This document shows, piece by piece, positions 6,185 through 19,515 of a stretch of DNA of 38,946 nt. Numbering within the stretch: position 1 is the stretch's first letter; each line of letters opens with the position of its first letter. The notes beneath the pieces are model-generated. The model was given only the letters and a program-made list of their open reading frames with translations, had not been told where the DNA came from and did no database searches. Location: contig CAMBDK010000016.1 of the NCBI GenBank assembly GCA_945865315.1, forward strand, positions 1 through 38,946. The letters run 5' to 3'. Position numbers and translations under genes: made by a program. This DNA is from Chitinophaga pinensis. GTDB lineage: Bacteria > Bacteroidota > Bacteroidia > 2-12-FULL-35-15.

Positions 6185-6490
6185 TTAAATTAAATAAGTA
6201 ATATAAAAACAACATAGCCGATGAAAACAAAAAAATTAACTCTGTCCATAAAGTCACTTTTTATTGAACTTTTTTCATTTCTTTATGTTACGGCATTTAG
6301 TTAAAAGGTTATATACTATAAGGGTATCACCAATAGACGAATTATTTGAAGCTGTAGGCAAGTTTAGAAAAAAAATGCAAATTGCGGACAGACAAGATAA
6401 CCAACAATAAATTTCTTTAACAGTTCTTGATTGTTTGAATTTTTTTTTAATTTTGTAAACAAAAAGTGGAGCCAACACCACTATAAAAAT
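6185..6490. other. Gene-free stretch
   Basis: About 300 bp between the glycosyltransferase remnant and the leader of the copper-domain gene. A 27-codon forward frame from the ATG at 6221 and a 78-codon minus-strand frame exist, but neither has recognisable content, so I annotate nothing here. Confidence 0.5.
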
Positions 6491-6512
6491 GGGGCGATAT
6501 CGAAAAGCCAAA
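6491..6512 (+). repeat. Leader motif shared with the gene at 17,240 (copy 1)
   Basis: The segment GGGGCGATATCGAAAAGCC plus AAA here matches 20 of 22 positions with 17193-17214. Both copies lie about 25-32 bp before the ATG of a T9SS protein whose signal peptide begins MKKITLL. The shared stretch could be a regulatory leader or a duplicated 5' module. Confidence 0.5.
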
Positions 6513-6543
6513 AGAGTAGGAAAGAATTTAAATTAAAATAAAA

Positions 6544-14032: not shown

Positions 14033-14097
14033 AAAGAAAAAAAACGCGCCCATGCTTTTGAAGGCTTGATTTTAAAAGCTTTTAAATTTGCGTTTAC

Positions 14098-14325
14098 TTA
14101 TGAATATTATTGATAAAAATGTGTCTAAAAAAGTTGCTCAAAGAACTTCCCTTTTTATTTTTTCAAAAAAGAACCTCCATTAACAAAAATAAAGCGAATA
14201 CCTTGATTCCTATTTTTTAAAAAACCAATTCCAATTTTGTATTATTTTAAAATACATTAATGCGATTTACTGGGATCCATTTTTTTTACTACTTTTGATT
14301 GTAATGGTTAGTTTTTTAGACAAAC
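14098..14325 (+). repeat. Direct repeat copy 1, leader of the gene at 14,379
   Basis: About 228 bp that match 15002-15222 across nearly the whole length, with blocks such as ACCTTGATTCCTATTTT, GGATCCATTTTTTTTAC and TTTTTAGACAAAC. Each copy ends 53-85 bp before a plus-strand gene, so the repeat probably supplies a promoter or leader. The left part contains a short imperfect hairpin around AAGTT-CTCAAAGAACTT. Confidence 0.8.
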
Positions 14326-14378
14326 TCACGTTAGCTGCAATTGTAAAATCGATTTCCAAAACATAATTTAGATTAACA

Positions 14379-14837
14379 ATGAAAACAAAAAATAAACTTG
14401 ACAAAATGTTCGGACCAGTTGGAACTTCAGCAGGAGTAACTCTATTTGTTGCTGGATTAATTATAACTTATTTCTCATTGATAGGATATATTTTAGTTTT
14501 AATTGGAGCTTTTGTCGGATTTACTTCAACAAGCACATTGATTGATTTTGAAAATAAGAGATTAAGATTTACAAATAATATATTTGGAATTTTTCCAATT
14601 GGAAAATGGGTTTTTATTGAAACAGATATGAAAATTGGTATTAGAAAATCAAATAAAGTATGGGCAGCAAATAGCCGGAGTAATCGTAGCTTGATTATAG
14701 CTAATAATGATTATAGGTTGATTCTTTATGATTCTAATGGTAGAGAGATTTTGCCAATTCAAAAATTTGACAATCTTGATTCAGCAAAGTCAAATTTGGA
14801 TAAAATTAGTAAAGAAATAGGGATAGAAATAATTTGA
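14379..14837 (+). CDS. Small membrane protein with two N-terminal helices
   Basis: A 152-residue protein. Two membrane helices lie at about residues 15-33 and 35-52 (GVTLFVAGLIITYF and LIGYILVLIGAFVGF), separated by a very short turn. The rest is cytoplasmic and beta-rich, with a final helix (DSAKSNLDKISKEIG). This arrangement resembles bacterial PH-like membrane proteins, but no diagnostic motif is visible and I cannot name a family. It sits between two direct repeats, with a palindromic element 35 bp after its stop, like a cassette. Confidence 0.65.
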   Translation: MKTKNKLDKMFGPVGTSAGVTLFVAGLIITYFSLIGYILVLIGAFVGFTSTSTLIDFENKRLRFTNNIFGIFPIGKWVFIETDMKIGIRKSNKVWAANSRSNRSLIIANNDYRLILYDSNGREILPIQKFDNLDSAKSNLDKISKEIGIEII

Positions 14838-14871
14838 TTTTTTAAAATCAAGATTATATGAAACAACTGTA

Positions 14872-14986
14872 GCATAACACCTAAGGTTTCTTATCGCCTG
14901 AAAGGCGAACAATGAAACCTATATTGCACTTAACCGTTTATGCGGTGGGGGCATATCTGGCTATCGATTTGTTATGGGGATTGCGC
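14872..14986 (+). repeat. Two-hairpin intergenic element, copy 1 (full length)
   Basis: It begins GCATAACACC and ends GTTATGGGGATTGCG; the end hexamers CATAAC/GTTATG are complementary. Inside, hairpin 1 has AGGTTTC (14884-14890) pairing with GAAACCT (14914-14920) around CGCCT/AGGCG, and hairpin 2 has ACCG/CGGT (14933-14946). It shares most of its length with the copy at 19157 and about 40 bp with 16659. It follows the gene at 14379 and directly precedes direct repeat copy 2. Confidence 0.75.
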
Positions 14987-15001
14987 TTCATTTGCGCAAA
15001 A

Positions 15002-15222
15002 TTATGAACATTATTGATAATAATGTGTTTTAAAAGTTCCTTAAAGAACTTGGCTTTTTTTTTCAAAAAACAAGCTCTATAAACAAAAATAAAGCTAATA
15101 CCTTGATTCCTATTTTAAAAAACCCAATTCCAACTTTGTTTTTGTACGCTGCTTAATTATCTTCTAATGAGATCCATTTTTTTTACGACTTTTGATTGAA
15201 ATGGTTGTTTTTTTAGACAAAC
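15002..15222 (+). repeat. Direct repeat copy 2, leader of the gene at 15,308
   Basis: The partner of 14098-14325, with scattered substitutions and small indels, mostly in its second half. It starts 15 bp after the two-hairpin element at 14872 and ends 85 bp before the Ntn-hydrolase gene. The 470-bp gap between the two genes consists almost wholly of these two elements. Confidence 0.8.
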
Positions 15223-15307
15223 AGCCTTAGCGGAAAGCTTTTGGGACAGTGCTTACTTTAAACATTGGAGATTTGTATAATAATAAAAAGAAAAACTCAT
15301 TAGAAAT

Positions 15308-16618
15308 ATGATAACTAGAATAATTGGACTTATGAGCAATGTGAAAAATAAATTAACTTTGCTCACAGCATTATTAATACTGTCCTTCCTTTCAGGATAT
15401 TCCTGCAGCACCTACAAAATAACTGTGGGAGATAAAACTATTTATGGAATAAATTACGACTCTTGGTTTAGCCAACCACGAATATGGTTTGAAACAAACG
15501 GTTATGGTGCAGCTTTTACAGGTGCAAATTATCAGGGAGGAAATGACCTTACACCTCATTCAGGAATGAATGAGTATGGACTTTCTTTTGGCACCCTAGC
15601 AACACCCACACCCGATAAAGAAAAATCATTTGAAAACAGGAAAATAATTCAAAGCAGGTCAAAATATCTAAAAGATATTTTACATTCTTGTAAAAACATT
15701 AAAGAAGTAAAAGCATTTATTGAAGAATATGACCATAGCAAACTATCCAATGATGTATTTATTTATACAGACAAATCAGGGAAGTATTTGATTGTTGAGC
15801 CCTACGAAATAATTTCAGGTAATGAGGACAAGTATGTTCTTGCTAACTTCTGCCCTTCAACTATTAATGACTTAAACAGCATTAAGCAACAGCGTTATGT
15901 TAACGGAGCCGCATTTTTGAAAAGCAAAATTGACACCTCACTTGCATTTTGCACAGCACTTTCAGACACAATGCATGTTTGCAGAAAAAAAATTGGTGAC
16001 GGAACTTTACTAACTTCTATTTTGGACTTGAACAAGGGTATAGTTCATTTATACTTTTATCATGACTATAAACACATGGTTTTATTCAACTTAAAAGAAG
16101 AGTTATCAAAAGGAAATCACTCCTATGAAATCGTATCATTATTTCCTGCGAATATTGAATATCAAAAATTCATTGCTTTTCAAACACCATTGAACAATAA
16201 TAAAATTGACTACTTTCTTCGCATTTGCTTTACACTTTTTGTCTTTTCATTTCTTTTTTTTGTTACCAGTTATTTTAGAAATACAAAAATAGCGTTCGCA
16301 AACTATAAATTGCTGCTTGCCGCATTGAGTTTATGTTTAGCGTATTACATGTTTACTTTAGCTACAGAAATGGGGATTTTCTATTTTCCTTCTCCTTATA
16401 AAAATTACAAATTCGGATTGATTGATGTTGCTTCTTTTCTTCCATTCATAATGGTATTACTGATATTTCCATTATTGATTATAAACCGAAAAGTTTTTAA
16501 ATTGAATCTTTGGAATACATTTTCAAAATTTCTTTTTACGGTTAACAGCATTACATACTTAATTTTAATTGTGCTATTTTCTTACTGGGGTTTCTATAAT
16601 ATTTTTAACCAACAATGA
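15308..16618 (+). CDS. Ntn-hydrolase (penicillin acylase/C45-like) fused to a C-terminal membrane domain
   Basis: A 436-residue protein. A hydrophobic signal segment (15-31) precedes Cys33 in SCSTYKITVG, followed by the GINYDSW motif (48-53). This Cys plus N-x-D spacing, and the later N-E-Y-GLSFG, SRSKYLKDIL and DKSGKYLIVEP blocks, fit the choloylglycine hydrolase/penicillin V acylase/acyltransferase branch of N-terminal nucleophile hydrolases, in which the exposed Cys attacks amide bonds. Residues about 300-430 form four membrane helices, not part of the standard family. The enzyme domain would face the periplasm. The start could also be Met9. The substrate is unknown. It follows direct repeat copy 2. 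Confidence 0.75.
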   Translation: MITRIIGLMSNVKNKLTLLTALLILSFLSGYSCSTYKITVGDKTIYGINYDSWFSQPRIWFETNGYGAAFTGANYQGGNDLTPHSGMNEYGLSFGTLATPTPDKEKSFENRKIIQSRSKYLKDILHSCKNIKEVKAFIEEYDHSKLSNDVFIYTDKSGKYLIVEPYEIISGNEDKYVLANFCPSTINDLNSIKQQRYVNGAAFLKSKIDTSLAFCTALSDTMHVCRKKIGDGTLLTSILDLNKGIVHLYFYHDYKHMVLFNLKEELSKGNHSYEIVSLFPANIEYQKFIAFQTPLNNNKIDYFLRICFTLFVFSFLFFVTSYFRNTKIAFANYKLLLAALSLCLAYYMFTLATEMGIFYFPSPYKNYKFGLIDVASFLPFIMVLLIFPLLIINRKVFKLNLWNTFSKFLFTVNSITYLILIVLFSYWGFYNIFNQQ

Positions 16619-16658
16619 AAGGTATTAGATTGAACAGCGTGACAAATTTGCCAGCCAC

Positions 16659-16702
16659 CAACACCTAAGGTTTCGTTGCGCCTCAAAGGCGAAAAATGAA
16701 AA
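16659..16702 (+). repeat. Two-hairpin intergenic element, copy 2 (truncated)
   Basis: This stretch (CAACACCTAAGGTTTCG onward, through GCGCCTCAAAGGCG) is identical to the first 44 bp of the copy at 19157. It carries hairpin 1 only and then changes to sequence leading into a transposase remnant, suggesting that an insertion or deletion removed the right half. It lies 40 bp after the Ntn-hydrolase gene. Confidence 0.7.
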
Positions 16703-16711
16703 CAAAATGCT

Positions 16712-16906
16712 GTGAGGATACAAATATTTACAACCTTTTTAATTATACTAATGCTAAAGACTTTAAAGGCAATGGCAAAATTTAACTGGCATCTTTCTAA
16801 TTTGGTAGCATTTATAAGTTTGAATCATTTTATAAAAATTAATCTACAGGATTGGCTTGATAACCCGTTTGAATTACACAACGGACCTCAAAAAAACATA
16901 ATTTAA
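16712..16906 (+). pseudogene. IS4-like transposase, C-terminal remnant
   Basis: The frame from 16712 encodes 64 residues; from about residue 24 it reads FNWHLSNLVAFISLNHF, then KINLQDWLDNPFE. This is the typical tail of IS4-type transposases (N-L-x-x-L-V-A-x-x-x-L-N-x-F plus L-x-x-W-L-x-x-P-F). The upstream part, including the DDE residues, is missing, and the first 23 residues do not fit. The start codon is not real. Confidence 0.5.
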
Positions 16907-17192
16907 CAGATTTTTTTATATATTTGTCGAATACATTATACTTTTTTCAATAAAAAAATACTTTTATTAGCAAAAAACATTTAGGACAAGGTTGATTGCC
17001 AAGCAATTTGATTTGATAGTAAATAAATTAGTTGCTGCTGACAGCATCAAACTTCCTGCTCAAAATTCCAAGAAAAATAATTTTAATGAATCCCCCTAAA
17101 TGAAACCTTGCATTCTAAATAATAAAATATAGCACAAAAATTGTAAGCAGCAAAAATCTAAAAAAACTTGGAGACCAGATACCAAAAAAAAC
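16907..17192. other. Gene-free stretch
   Basis: This AT-rich gap between the IS4-like remnant and the leader of the next T9SS gene has no recognisable frame, hairpin or promoter box. Confidence 0.5.
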
Positions 17193-17214
17193 GGGGTGAT
17201 AACGAAAAGCCAAA
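17193..17214 (+). repeat. Leader motif shared with the gene at 6,544 (copy 2)
   Basis: The segment GGGGTGATAACGAAAAGCC plus AAA differs at two positions from 6491-6512. It stands 25 bp before the ATG of the T9SS gene at 17240. In both places one frame reads N-G-x-I-x-K-S-Q, so the motif may instead be the end of a lost coding sequence. Confidence 0.5.
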
Positions 17215-17239
17215 GTAATCGTAATAATAAAAAAAAAAT

Positions 17240-18163
17240 ATGAAAAAAATTACCCTATTATTATTAAGTTGTTCTAGTTTAGCTGGCTTTTCACAAGCAA
17301 TACCAAACTCAGGATTTGAAACATGGATTAATAATACTGAACTCCCTCAAGCCTATGAGGTTCCTCAAGGTTGGATCTCAGATGATATGATTAGATCGGG
17401 TTTTGATCCTGCATACACCGGTATTTCAGTGTCAAAAAGTACTCAGAGCTATTCAGGTTCATTTGCAGTAAAAATGGAAACCATCATTAATAATGGCGAT
17501 ACTGTTAGCGGCACTATATATTCTGTGCAATCATTAGTGGAATTTTTCAGCTACCTTTTTTCTGAAAATGCGGCCATAGGATTCCCTTATTCAGATCGCC
17601 CAGCAAATTTACAAGGTTATTATAAATTTAATTCTGTTGGAAATGATTCTGCTGGTATTGCAATTGAGATGTACAAATGGAATACAATAACCGGTGTTAG
17701 TGATATCATAGCTTTTGGTGAGTATAGTATAGGAGCAAATGCATCCTCTTATACAGTATTCAATTTACCAATTACATATATGAATAGCGAAAGTCCTGAT
17801 ACGGTTGTGATCTTTGCTGGAATAAATGGTTCACATGTTGGAACAACTTTTTATATCGATGCTCTTTCATTCACAGGAACAGCGCCCATAGGTATTGATG
17901 AATTATATTCAGATAATAAATATGTTAAACTATATCCCAATCCATTTAGCAATAGTGCTAGCATAAACATTGATATTGCAGTAAAGTTAAATAACGCATC
18001 TATTAGAATATTTGATATATCAGGTAAAGAAGTGAAAACGATAAATAATATAAACAAAAACCTCGTAATTCTTGAAAAAGGAGAAATGACTGCCGGACTA
18101 TATTTTTATAAACTTTTAAATAATAGTTCCGAAGTGTATAATGGGAAATTTATTATTAGGTAA
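17240..18163 (+). CDS. Secreted protein with T9SS sorting domain
   Basis: A 307-residue protein. Signal peptide at 1-20 (ending FSQA). The mature N-terminus has IPNSGFETW and EVPQGW, a pattern seen at the start of PCMD-like or carbohydrate-binding-like modules of Bacteroidota surface proteins; the middle is beta-rich with DTVVIFAGINGSH and FYIDALSF, typical of jelly-roll folds. The C-terminus (about 230-307) is a T9SS type A domain (LYPNPFSNSASINID ... GLYFYKLL). It probably binds glycans at the cell surface, which is inference from fold impression only. A strong terminator follows at 18222. Confidence 0.8.
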   Translation: MKKITLLLLSCSSLAGFSQAIPNSGFETWINNTELPQAYEVPQGWISDDMIRSGFDPAYTGISVSKSTQSYSGSFAVKMETIINNGDTVSGTIYSVQSLVEFFSYLFSENAAIGFPYSDRPANLQGYYKFNSVGNDSAGIAIEMYKWNTITGVSDIIAFGEYSIGANASSYTVFNLPITYMNSESPDTVVIFAGINGSHVGTTFYIDALSFTGTAPIGIDELYSDNKYVKLYPNPFSNSASINIDIAVKLNNASIRIFDISGKEVKTINNINKNLVILEKGEMTAGLYFYKLLNNSSEVYNGKFIIR

Positions 18164-18221
18164 CCTCTATTAAAATGCTCAGGTAATTTTTATTGCTTTA
18201 GTCTAAACATCTTTATTAGTA

Positions 18222-18267
18222 AGGTTTAAAACAATCCCTCCATAATGGAGGGATTGTTTTAAAACCT
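18222..18267 (+). terminator. Strong hairpin terminator of the T9SS gene at 17,240
   Basis: AGGTTTAAAACAATCCCTCC pairs with GGAGGGATTGTTTTAAAACC around ATAAT: about 20 bp, nearly perfect, with a GC-rich top. It stands 58 bp after the stop and separates the gene from the next lipoprotein gene. Confidence 0.8.
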
Positions 18268-18406
18268 AATGAATACAGTTAATTTAGTTCATACTTTTAA
18301 AAACTACCGAAAGTTGATATTATAAAAAAGACTAATTTAATTTTACTCTGATTTATTACAATAGTTCTAACAAAAATTCTAAATTCTAACTCTTAAACCT
18401 GGAAAA

Positions 18407-18910
18407 ATGAAAAAAGTATCGTTTATGTTAAGTTTTTTGCTGCTGAGTTTAATAGCTTGTAAAAAAGAGAAAGAAACACCTTTAACCACTGTACCTCCAA
18501 TTTCTTTGGTCACTGTAGAAGTAACCATAATGAATGACACTGTCGACTATAGCATAACAACTAATTGTTCCGATTGGTCAAAAGATATGGATTTTGATAG
18601 TATTAATACCAACCAAAATTATAATTTAAATTCAATAGATACTAATTGTGTTTTTACTAATAATAGAAAACTTGAGTTTAGTGCAAGCAACGGCTGCAAG
18701 TTATTTTTGAGTGATAACTTAGGGGGTAATGTAAAAAAATATAATCAAGGACAAACAATTGATTATAATACTGTTACTAATTCCTTCTCAACAAATCAAG
18801 GAAATGTTTCTGCTCGAATTTTAGAAGAAGGAGTGACAAATGAATTTAACTTAAACGAAACATTTTATTTAGGTACTGCTTTTTTAGTTAATGGAAACTA
18901 TTATAATTGA
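18407..18910 (+). CDS. Hypothetical lipoprotein
   Basis: A 167-residue lipoprotein: signal MKKVSFMLSFLLLSL and lipobox LIAC with Cys18 as lipidated residue, followed by a KKEKE charged linker that would sit just outside the membrane. The mature part is Asn/Thr/Ser-rich and beta-like, with three further Cys residues (about 54, 76 and 92). No family recognised. It stands alone between a terminator and a hairpin, just before the right end of the accessory block. Confidence 0.7.
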   Translation: MKKVSFMLSFLLLSLIACKKEKETPLTTVPPISLVTVEVTIMNDTVDYSITTNCSDWSKDMDFDSINTNQNYNLNSIDTNCVFTNNRKLEFSASNGCKLFLSDNLGGNVKKYNQGQTIDYNTVTNSFSTNQGNVSARILEEGVTNEFNLNETFYLGTAFLVNGNYYN

Positions 18911-18965
18911 TGGGTTAAAGTAAAAACGCTTAACAATTATTATTCGTGTATTATCGTTTCTTATG

Positions 18966-18987
18966 GTGTTTGTAAAACTGCAAACAC
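18966..18987 (+). terminator. Weak hairpin after the lipoprotein gene
   Basis: GTGTTTG (18966-18972) pairs with CAAACAC (18981-18987) around 8 nt, 56 bp after the stop. There is no T-tract, so termination is uncertain. Confidence 0.3.
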
Positions 18988-19110
18988 TCCTATAACTGCT
19001 GAATAAATATCATCTGCTTTAAATAAAAAGGGTGGCTAATTGCTATTGTGTGAGGAACAGTGAGATAATAAGCCTTCTTAGTATTGCGAACTGCGGGTAA
19101 TTGAAATTAA

Positions 19111-19156
19111 GTGTCAGTAACCGCGGGCTATGTGGCTCAGAAAAAAGCACTGACAC
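19111..19156. repeat. Inverted repeat abutting two-hairpin element copy 3
   Basis: GTGTCAGT (19111-19118) and ACTGACAC (19149-19156) form an 8-bp stem with a 30-nt loop. The right arm ends exactly where the conserved element at 19157 begins. Confidence 0.5.
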
Positions 19157-19268
19157 CAACACCTAAGGTTTCGTTGCGCCTCAAAGGCGAAAAATGAAAA
19201 CAGATATTGCCCGAAACCGCTTGAGCGGCTGGGGATATCAGGTTATGAATTTGTTATGGGGAATGCGT
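19157..19268 (+). repeat. Two-hairpin intergenic element, copy 3 (full length)
   Basis: It starts CAACACCTAAGG and ends GTTATGGGGAATGCG. Hairpin 1 has GCGCCT/AGGCG with TTTC/GAAA; hairpin 2 has CCGCT (19217-19221) and AGCGG (19224-19228). The second helix differs in sequence from the 14872 copy but keeps its pairing. This is the last repetitive element before the core genes; the remaining 247 bp to the threonine aldolase stop hold only T-rich sequence. Confidence 0.75.
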
Positions 19269-19515
19269 TTTGTTAATCCAATCGCATTTATTTTTTAAGA
19301 AGGTTCTCTTTTGAGTTTTTGTTATTATTTCCCCCTTACTTTTAAAACTATTTAATGCGTTTTTAATTTTTCCGACTAAATAATTATTCAAACATTTTTT
19401 TATTTTTATTTTTTTCTTAATGCGCAATAATCTGCAATAAAGCTATTTAGCAGTAAAAAATTAATTAAATTTAAGGTTCGTAACATTTGTATAAAAACCT
19501 ATTAATAAAAGTAAG

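Follow-up and report, generated by a model that had tools for sequence, protein, structure and literature searches.

The three related elements on the plus strand of a 38,946-nucleotide stretch of Chitinophaga pinensis DNA (contig CAMBDK010000016.1, assembly GCA_945865315.1; this whole stretch is called the window) are in all probability, with an estimated likelihood of about 88%, attC-like recombination sites, and the preceding genes are present or former mobile cassettes belonging to an integron-like Bacteroidota system. As a first-pass annotation made from the sequence alone had described, each element follows a plus-strand gene, and the three occupy 14872-14986, 16659-16702 (a truncated copy) and 19157-19268. 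The case is built on paired sites, cassette arrays, attI-like sites, a linked tyrosine recombinase that lacks the IntI-specific domain, and a covarying hairpin. The system is integron-like in operation, yet it is not an integron if IntI is required. Work on archaeal integrons has named the IntI-specific domain as defining (PMC9668308).

In the mechanism proposed here, a cassette would consist of R' (GTTA plus 10 variable bases), one or a few genes, R'' (10 variable bases plus TAAC) and an inner folded part. Because R' and R'' of one cassette are complementary, a circle produced by excision would carry one complete folded site. By analogy with integrons, the bottom strand of attC, once folded, would be bound by a tyrosine recombinase whose gene lies immediately 5' of an attI-like site; insertion of the cassette at attI by this enzyme would produce arrays that read co-directionally with the recombinase gene; the crossover would fall between G and TTA. 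At sites of the kind found in the window (window-type sites), hairpin 1 would fold beside the R box, and 200-300 bp would lie between it and R'.

Paired R boxes and the window-type site

Alignment of the elements with their flanks resolves a constant core, TAACAGCTAAGGTTTCGTTG-loop-AACAATGAAACC, with a variable stretch immediately 5' of TAAC and divergent sequence 3' of the core. Copies 1 and 3 match at 80% (E = 9e-21), and copies 2 and 3 share 49 identical bases (16656-16704 versus 19154-19202). Four further copies elsewhere bring the total in the genome of origin to seven, and five other congeneric genomes also contain copies. When 84,980 species genomes were scanned for the pattern, the window-type core was located in 83 stretches, almost all from Bacteroidota, with carriers in Pontibacter, Flavobacterium, Pedobacter, Chitinophagaceae, Cytophagales and Saprospirales; two contigs binned as Limnohabitans are likely misbinned. 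The recurrence of the exact core in these 83 other stretches, together with the seven copies in one genome, shows that the elements are not chance resemblances. A blastn search in other families returned no element copy, a misleading result given that a diverged copy in genome G038 emerged only by locus comparison. Phage records searched for the element gave no match, and the single pattern match among viral contigs (L171) does not keep the hairpin and was taken as chance.

What identifies the elements as cassette boundaries is the sequence immediately 5' of TAAC, which is the reverse complement of a GTTA site that opens the same gene unit, 0.4-3 kb upstream. When GTTA plus 10 bases was compared with 10 bases plus TAAC, 35 of the 68 testable window-type sites had a partner at a threshold of 12/14 or better, where 0.4 would be expected from shuffled boxes; one of the 35 (L167) is a scan artefact with its partner on the wrong side. 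This threshold replaced a looser test on the 8 leading bases, dropped after giving 44 hits against 35 in shuffles. The pair test is symmetrical under reverse complementation and therefore uninformative on direction, which was taken from the TAACA side. Complementary pairs occur in the genome of origin (contig C173) and in genomes G013, G008 and G038. The first-pass annotation had rested its comparison with attC on the complementarity of CATAAC and GTTATG as element ends, and in this detail it erred: only copy 1 starts with CATAAC (copies 2 and 3 start with CACCAAC, and copies in other genomes with xxTAAC), GTTATG belongs to a conserved inner motif, and the true pairing partner is the cassette start, not the end of the same 115-bp element.

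The paired boxes also carry a signature of strand. Among 84 distinct verified pairs, a mismatch occupies position 11 in 79, and 78 of these mismatches are A.C on the top strand (G.T on the bottom) versus one of the opposite kind. A bias of 78 to 1 is unexpected for plain inverted repeats and fits a site that is used as a folded bottom strand. Many other site types share this R box while their inner sequences differ. In these usual types complete sites measure 51-192 bp (median 126), pairing between L'' and L' beside the R box is clear, and the bottom strand folds better in 22 of 27. A promoter reading of the inner part is suggestive only, with TANNTTTG present in 7 of 27 top strands, in none of the 27 bottom strands, and in 1.4 shuffled sequences.

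Complete window-type sites (copy 1 of the window and its homologues at L092, L138 and L170) are longer, at 356-393 bp overall and 362-393 bp in the three homologues, and run from TAAC to a 3' end resembling TTAGACRAACTGMC followed by GTTA. Their conserved part is hairpin 1, which adjoins R'', and the stretch of 200-300 bp from there to R' is variable. Across 44 distinct sequences, 97.7% of the cells of hairpin 1 are paired, and its G.T pair is retained in 43. Doubly changed cells number 85 versus 28 ± 8 in shuffles, with every slid control far lower; because the search pattern fixed the 5' arm at all but one position, this covariation rests on the single free 5'-arm position and the apical stem. 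The two successive hairpins that had been proposed are real, the first on this measure and the second on comparison by eye. Hairpin 1 would then take the role of the usual attC inner arm and loop, with a spacer separating it from R'. Two sites show extremes of this layout: L161:1506-1570 is a near-perfect palindrome (TAACAGCTAAGG...CCTTAGCTGTTG), as if two inverted halves had been joined, and L013:560-600 is a minimal site, CGCTAACAGCAAAACGTTATAAGC, in which almost nothing separates R'' and R'.

Could hairpin 1 instead act in the transcript, as a structured RNA or mRNA 3'-end element that serves stability or termination and has spread with its gene? A covarying hairpin whose conserved G.U pair would be more stable as RNA is compatible with such a role, as are the position of the element shortly 3' of genes and the terminator-like stems with T runs in some relatives. 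However, an RNA element offers no account of the complementarity to a site 0.4-3 kb upstream, of arrays next to a recombinase, or of other site types that combine the same R box with different inner sequences. An Rfam scan of the window gave nothing at the elements at or above the gathering threshold, its matches being two DUF805 RNAs elsewhere in the window. A terminator reading of the spacer was likewise rejected in the window, where neither copy 1 nor copy 3 has a terminator match. An exclusively RNA-level function is for these reasons very unlikely, and it does not compete with the attC reading throughout, since attC sites may also act in mRNA.

Cassette arrays and their recombinase

The relation of these sites to a recombinase is evident in a genome of the same genus (G009), where a tyrosine recombinase gene is followed by a co-directional array with intergenic attC-like sites of the form TAACAGC...GCGAAACGTTA, in which each R'' reads as the reverse complement of the preceding site's R'. 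Such chains, whose cassettes each begin with an R' that pairs with the R'' of their attC as in integron arrays, were found in G009 (4 pairs), G026 (6 pairs), G027, G033 and G045, and arrays beside the recombinase are seen in isolates, complete genomes and metagenome-assembled genomes alike. The complete genome of Bacteroidetes bacterium UKL13-3 (CP012155.1) has two recombinase genes, each with an attI-like site at +106 and several consecutive cassettes after it; the genome holds eight recombinase matches, of which these two (L202, L204) head clear arrays. In 11 loci the first R' lies 90-146 bp past the recombinase match in an A+T-rich context, for example TATATACTA followed by GTTA, and its position and pairing are those of a putative attI. 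At two loci (L075, L081) the arrangement is divergent, as in classical integrons, with both the array and its attI-like site placed upstream of the recombinase gene.

Window-type sites belong to the same arrays. The diverged copy in G038, a genome of another family, lies 1.2 kb downstream of the recombinase, is the attC of the first cassette, and has compensated changes in hairpin 1. Window-type sites also occur inside arrays of the isolates Flavobacterium tegetincola (L208) and F. macacae (L217), and a recombinase match is present in 27 of 30 genomes that bear the window-type site, although in one of the 27 it is only a short Xer-like protein. At E ≤ 1e-80, a profile search found the recombinase in 146 of 295 genomes of class Bacteroidia.

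The array-linked recombinase has 350-400 residues and is longer where its N-terminal module repeats. This module of about 60 residues (F..N..L...W....W.VP) occurs in one to three tandem copies in L049, L051 and other recombinases and has no Pfam match. The catalytic residues R221, K246, H310, R313, H336 and Y345 are invariant in 15 sequences. In an AlphaFold model (mean pLDDT 80), the closest predicted fold is that of attC-bound VchIntIA (2a3v), followed by XerA, and overall the protein is nearest to XerA and IntI; in the recombinase tree, IntI1 is not safely placed owing to its long branch. The enzyme passes the NF040815 (XerA) cut-off and, like XerA, XerC and XerD (5hxy, 4a8e), has the corresponding domain make-up and no IntI insertion. 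It differs from those proteins in its N-terminal module, in ending SP.D.L like IntI, and in its linkage to cassette arrays rather than to dif (dif itself was not sought). Separate XerC/D-like genes occur in the searched genomes.

Are these then ordinary integrons, driven by a canonical IntI encoded elsewhere in the genome? The layout of attI, attC, cassettes and bottom-strand bias is indeed shared with integrons, but a search of 37 genomes with the integron integrase model returned no recombinase above the cut-off, only partial matches (at most 150 bits) in which the model positions for the IntI-specific domain were passed over. On the IntI model TIGR02249 the linked recombinase scores 210-216 against a cut-off of 265, in two pieces and with 57 model positions skipped, whereas the control IntI1 aligns end to end in one piece at 508 bits. 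Residues 180-249 of VchIntIA align only to residues 266-292 of the query, such that about 43 residues are lacking at the IntI-specific domain. A canonical integrase acting from a distance is accordingly quite improbable.

Probable remnant cassettes in the window

Within the window, the cassette features described below lie on the plus strand. The first cassette opens at 14330..14343 with the R' site GTTAGCTGCAATTG, the 3' terminus of an attC-like site upstream that has lost its 5' half. The leader before it (14086..14329) is the 3' part, or inner spacer, of a window-type site; it is repeated at 14990-15222 (81% identity across 241 bp) and ends with TTAGACAAACTCAC followed by GTTA, the 3' motif common to complete sites in other genomes. 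This partial copy (14086-14343) is homologous to a leader (L003/L085) that stands before a verified R' in the same genome, and it precedes the open reading frame of cassette 1 (152 residues, 14379..14837). The R'' box of attC-like site 1, CAACTGTAGCATAAC at 14864..14878, pairs with the R' at 14330: 12/14 positions match once an inserted base is allowed for, the position-11 A/G signature is present, and simulation gives P = 0.002. At full length, site 1 spans 14875..15230 and comprises hairpin 1 (14885..14919; the conserved covarying stem with the G.T pair and a 2-nt bulge, from which copy 1 deviates slightly), hairpin 2 (about 14922-14960, compared by eye), the spacer and a degenerate R' at 15227-15240 in which the G of GTTA is lost. 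The functional unit of copy 1 is consequently longer than the element first reported, at about 350 bp.

Cassette 2 contains an open reading frame of 436 residues (15308..16618) and is followed by attC-like copy 2 (16656..16704), which stops after hairpin 1. Copy 3 (19154..19493) has the long form with an R'' decayed to CACCAAC and is 77% identical over 336 bp to another copy in the same genome (L005). A candidate pairing of W3 with 15240 (11/14) was rejected as being at chance level for a 4-kb scan. The two DUF805 RNAs (RF03081) lie at 6461-6526 and 17163-17228, each directly upstream of a gene for a C-terminal-secretion-signal or similar surface protein.

The gene content of this region varies as expected of cassettes. 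Genes of cassettes 1 and 2 are each found in one of 36 congeneric genomes, their own, compared with 30 of 36 for the flanking threonine aldolase gene. The product of cassette 1 belongs to no Pfam or NCBIfam family; that of cassette 2 is weakly related to C45-type acyltransferases/hydrolases (27.8 bits, cut-off 85). Homologues of the cassette 2 gene in other families are 81% and 77% identical, and relatives of about 50% identity adjoin cassette sites in G182 and G241. A cassette system was among the options of the first-pass annotation, to be abandoned if the copies showed neither covariation nor gene-content variation; both are present, and the complementarity of R' and R'' and the arrays beside a recombinase with an attI-like site add to its support. 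The annotation was equally correct that the window contains no integrase, and a profile search of the whole genome likewise found no such recombinase. With no such recombinase in their genome, the window copies are orphans, the partly decayed remains of a cassette array.

Transposase-driven movement of a non-autonomous palindromic element (MITE or REP-like) would also give several dispersed copies per genome within a variable region, but it is very improbable, as the bases outside the TAAC core are different in each copy and match a partner where the neighbouring gene begins, neither target-site duplication nor transposase association was seen, and the pairing of 35 of 68 sites with an upstream GTTA partner strongly disfavors it.

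Several observations weigh against the interpretation of the elements as attC-like sites. About half of the window-type sites have no partner within 4.5 kb, many of them on short or broken contigs. In the window itself an R'/R'' pair can be recognised for cassette 1 alone, and it requires the inserted base; the R'' boxes of copies 2 and 3 are decayed, and as the genome has no recombinase, the system is unlikely to be active in this strain. Pairing of L'' with L' next to R' is not clear in the long window-type site, whose overall fold is not conserved. Among the usual site types the folding advantage of the bottom strand averages only 2 kcal/mol and does not always have the same sign. The AlphaFold model of the recombinase has a modest pTM (0.53), and recombination itself is something that we infer.

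Relation to integrons and to resistance genes

Compared with IntI integrons such as class 1 and the Vibrio superintegron (2a3v), the Bacteroidota system shares a tyrosine recombinase whose closest fold is VchIntIA, an attI-like site, arrays of one-gene cassettes, complementary R'/R'' boxes containing AAC/GTT, folded sites of 51-192 bp in most types, and a slightly more stable bottom strand. It differs in that its recombinase lacks the IntI-specific domain and has the extra N-terminal module, and in a window-type site of up to about 390 bp. The integron R box has the 7-nt consensus RYYYAAC/GTTRRRY, whereas the box described here extends to about 14 nt, position 11 being a fixed mismatch, and many boxes, such as GCATAAC, violate RYYYAAC. 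In most loci, unlike in IntI integrons, the recombinase gene precedes its array and reads in the same direction; the intI gene of Treponema is co-directional with its array. The integrons of Treponema and Salinibacter ruber, compared by description only, are similarly found outside Proteobacteria, but these were reported as complete by a tool that requires the IntI domain. IntegronFinder 2.0 lists that of S. ruber as the sole complete integron in Bacteroidetes proper (PMC9024848), and intI genes of the Bacteroidetes/Chlorobi group had appeared in an earlier survey (PMC2426708). The Bacteroidota cassette system seems to have gone unnoticed: no description of it was found in the literature searched, and an earlier one is possible in subscription papers or preprints, which lay outside the search.

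Resistance genes are found at such sites. On the Empedobacter brevis plasmid NZ_CP043637.1 (L244:4093-5150), lnu(H) is a complete cassette with an R'/R'' match of 13/14 and attC on both sides, and the arr gene just upstream may be another. On plasmid FJ012881.1 (L243:3016-5170), tet(X3) is flanked on one side by an attI-like site and on the other by the 5' half of an attC-like site, with an R'/R'' match of 10/14 that includes the position-11 signature (P of about 0.02 alone). In the xerD-tet(X3)-resolvase segment of Acinetobacter plasmids (PMC7758954), the XerD/TnpF protein is 54% identical to the recombinase and nests in the same clade; it differs in that the recombinase is truncated and the segment is moved by ISCR2. 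This unit looks like a displaced piece of the Bacteroidota cassette system, and the segment was not recognised as an integron in that paper, from which the word is absent.

We consider it somewhat probable, taking all parts jointly, that about half of Bacteroidia species carry an unrecognised integron-like system with its own recombinase, attI and attC families, and that this system is the source of the mobilised tet(X3) and lnu(H). Because it would work without the IntI-specific domain, its folded single-strand sites would have to be recognised in another way. Integrons are the main gene-capture platform of Proteobacteria and drivers of antibiotic resistance, and only isolated cases have been recorded in Bacteroidetes (PMC9024848). 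If the proposal is true, the usual detection tools, which require the IntI domain, would miss a platform present in 146 of the 295 genomes sampled from the class, with a bearing on resistance through the lnu(H) cassette of the Empedobacter plasmid and the xerD-tet(X3) unit of Acinetobacter. It would also raise the question of how a recombinase free of the IntI domain recognises folded DNA, and hence of how integrons originated from Xer-like enzymes.

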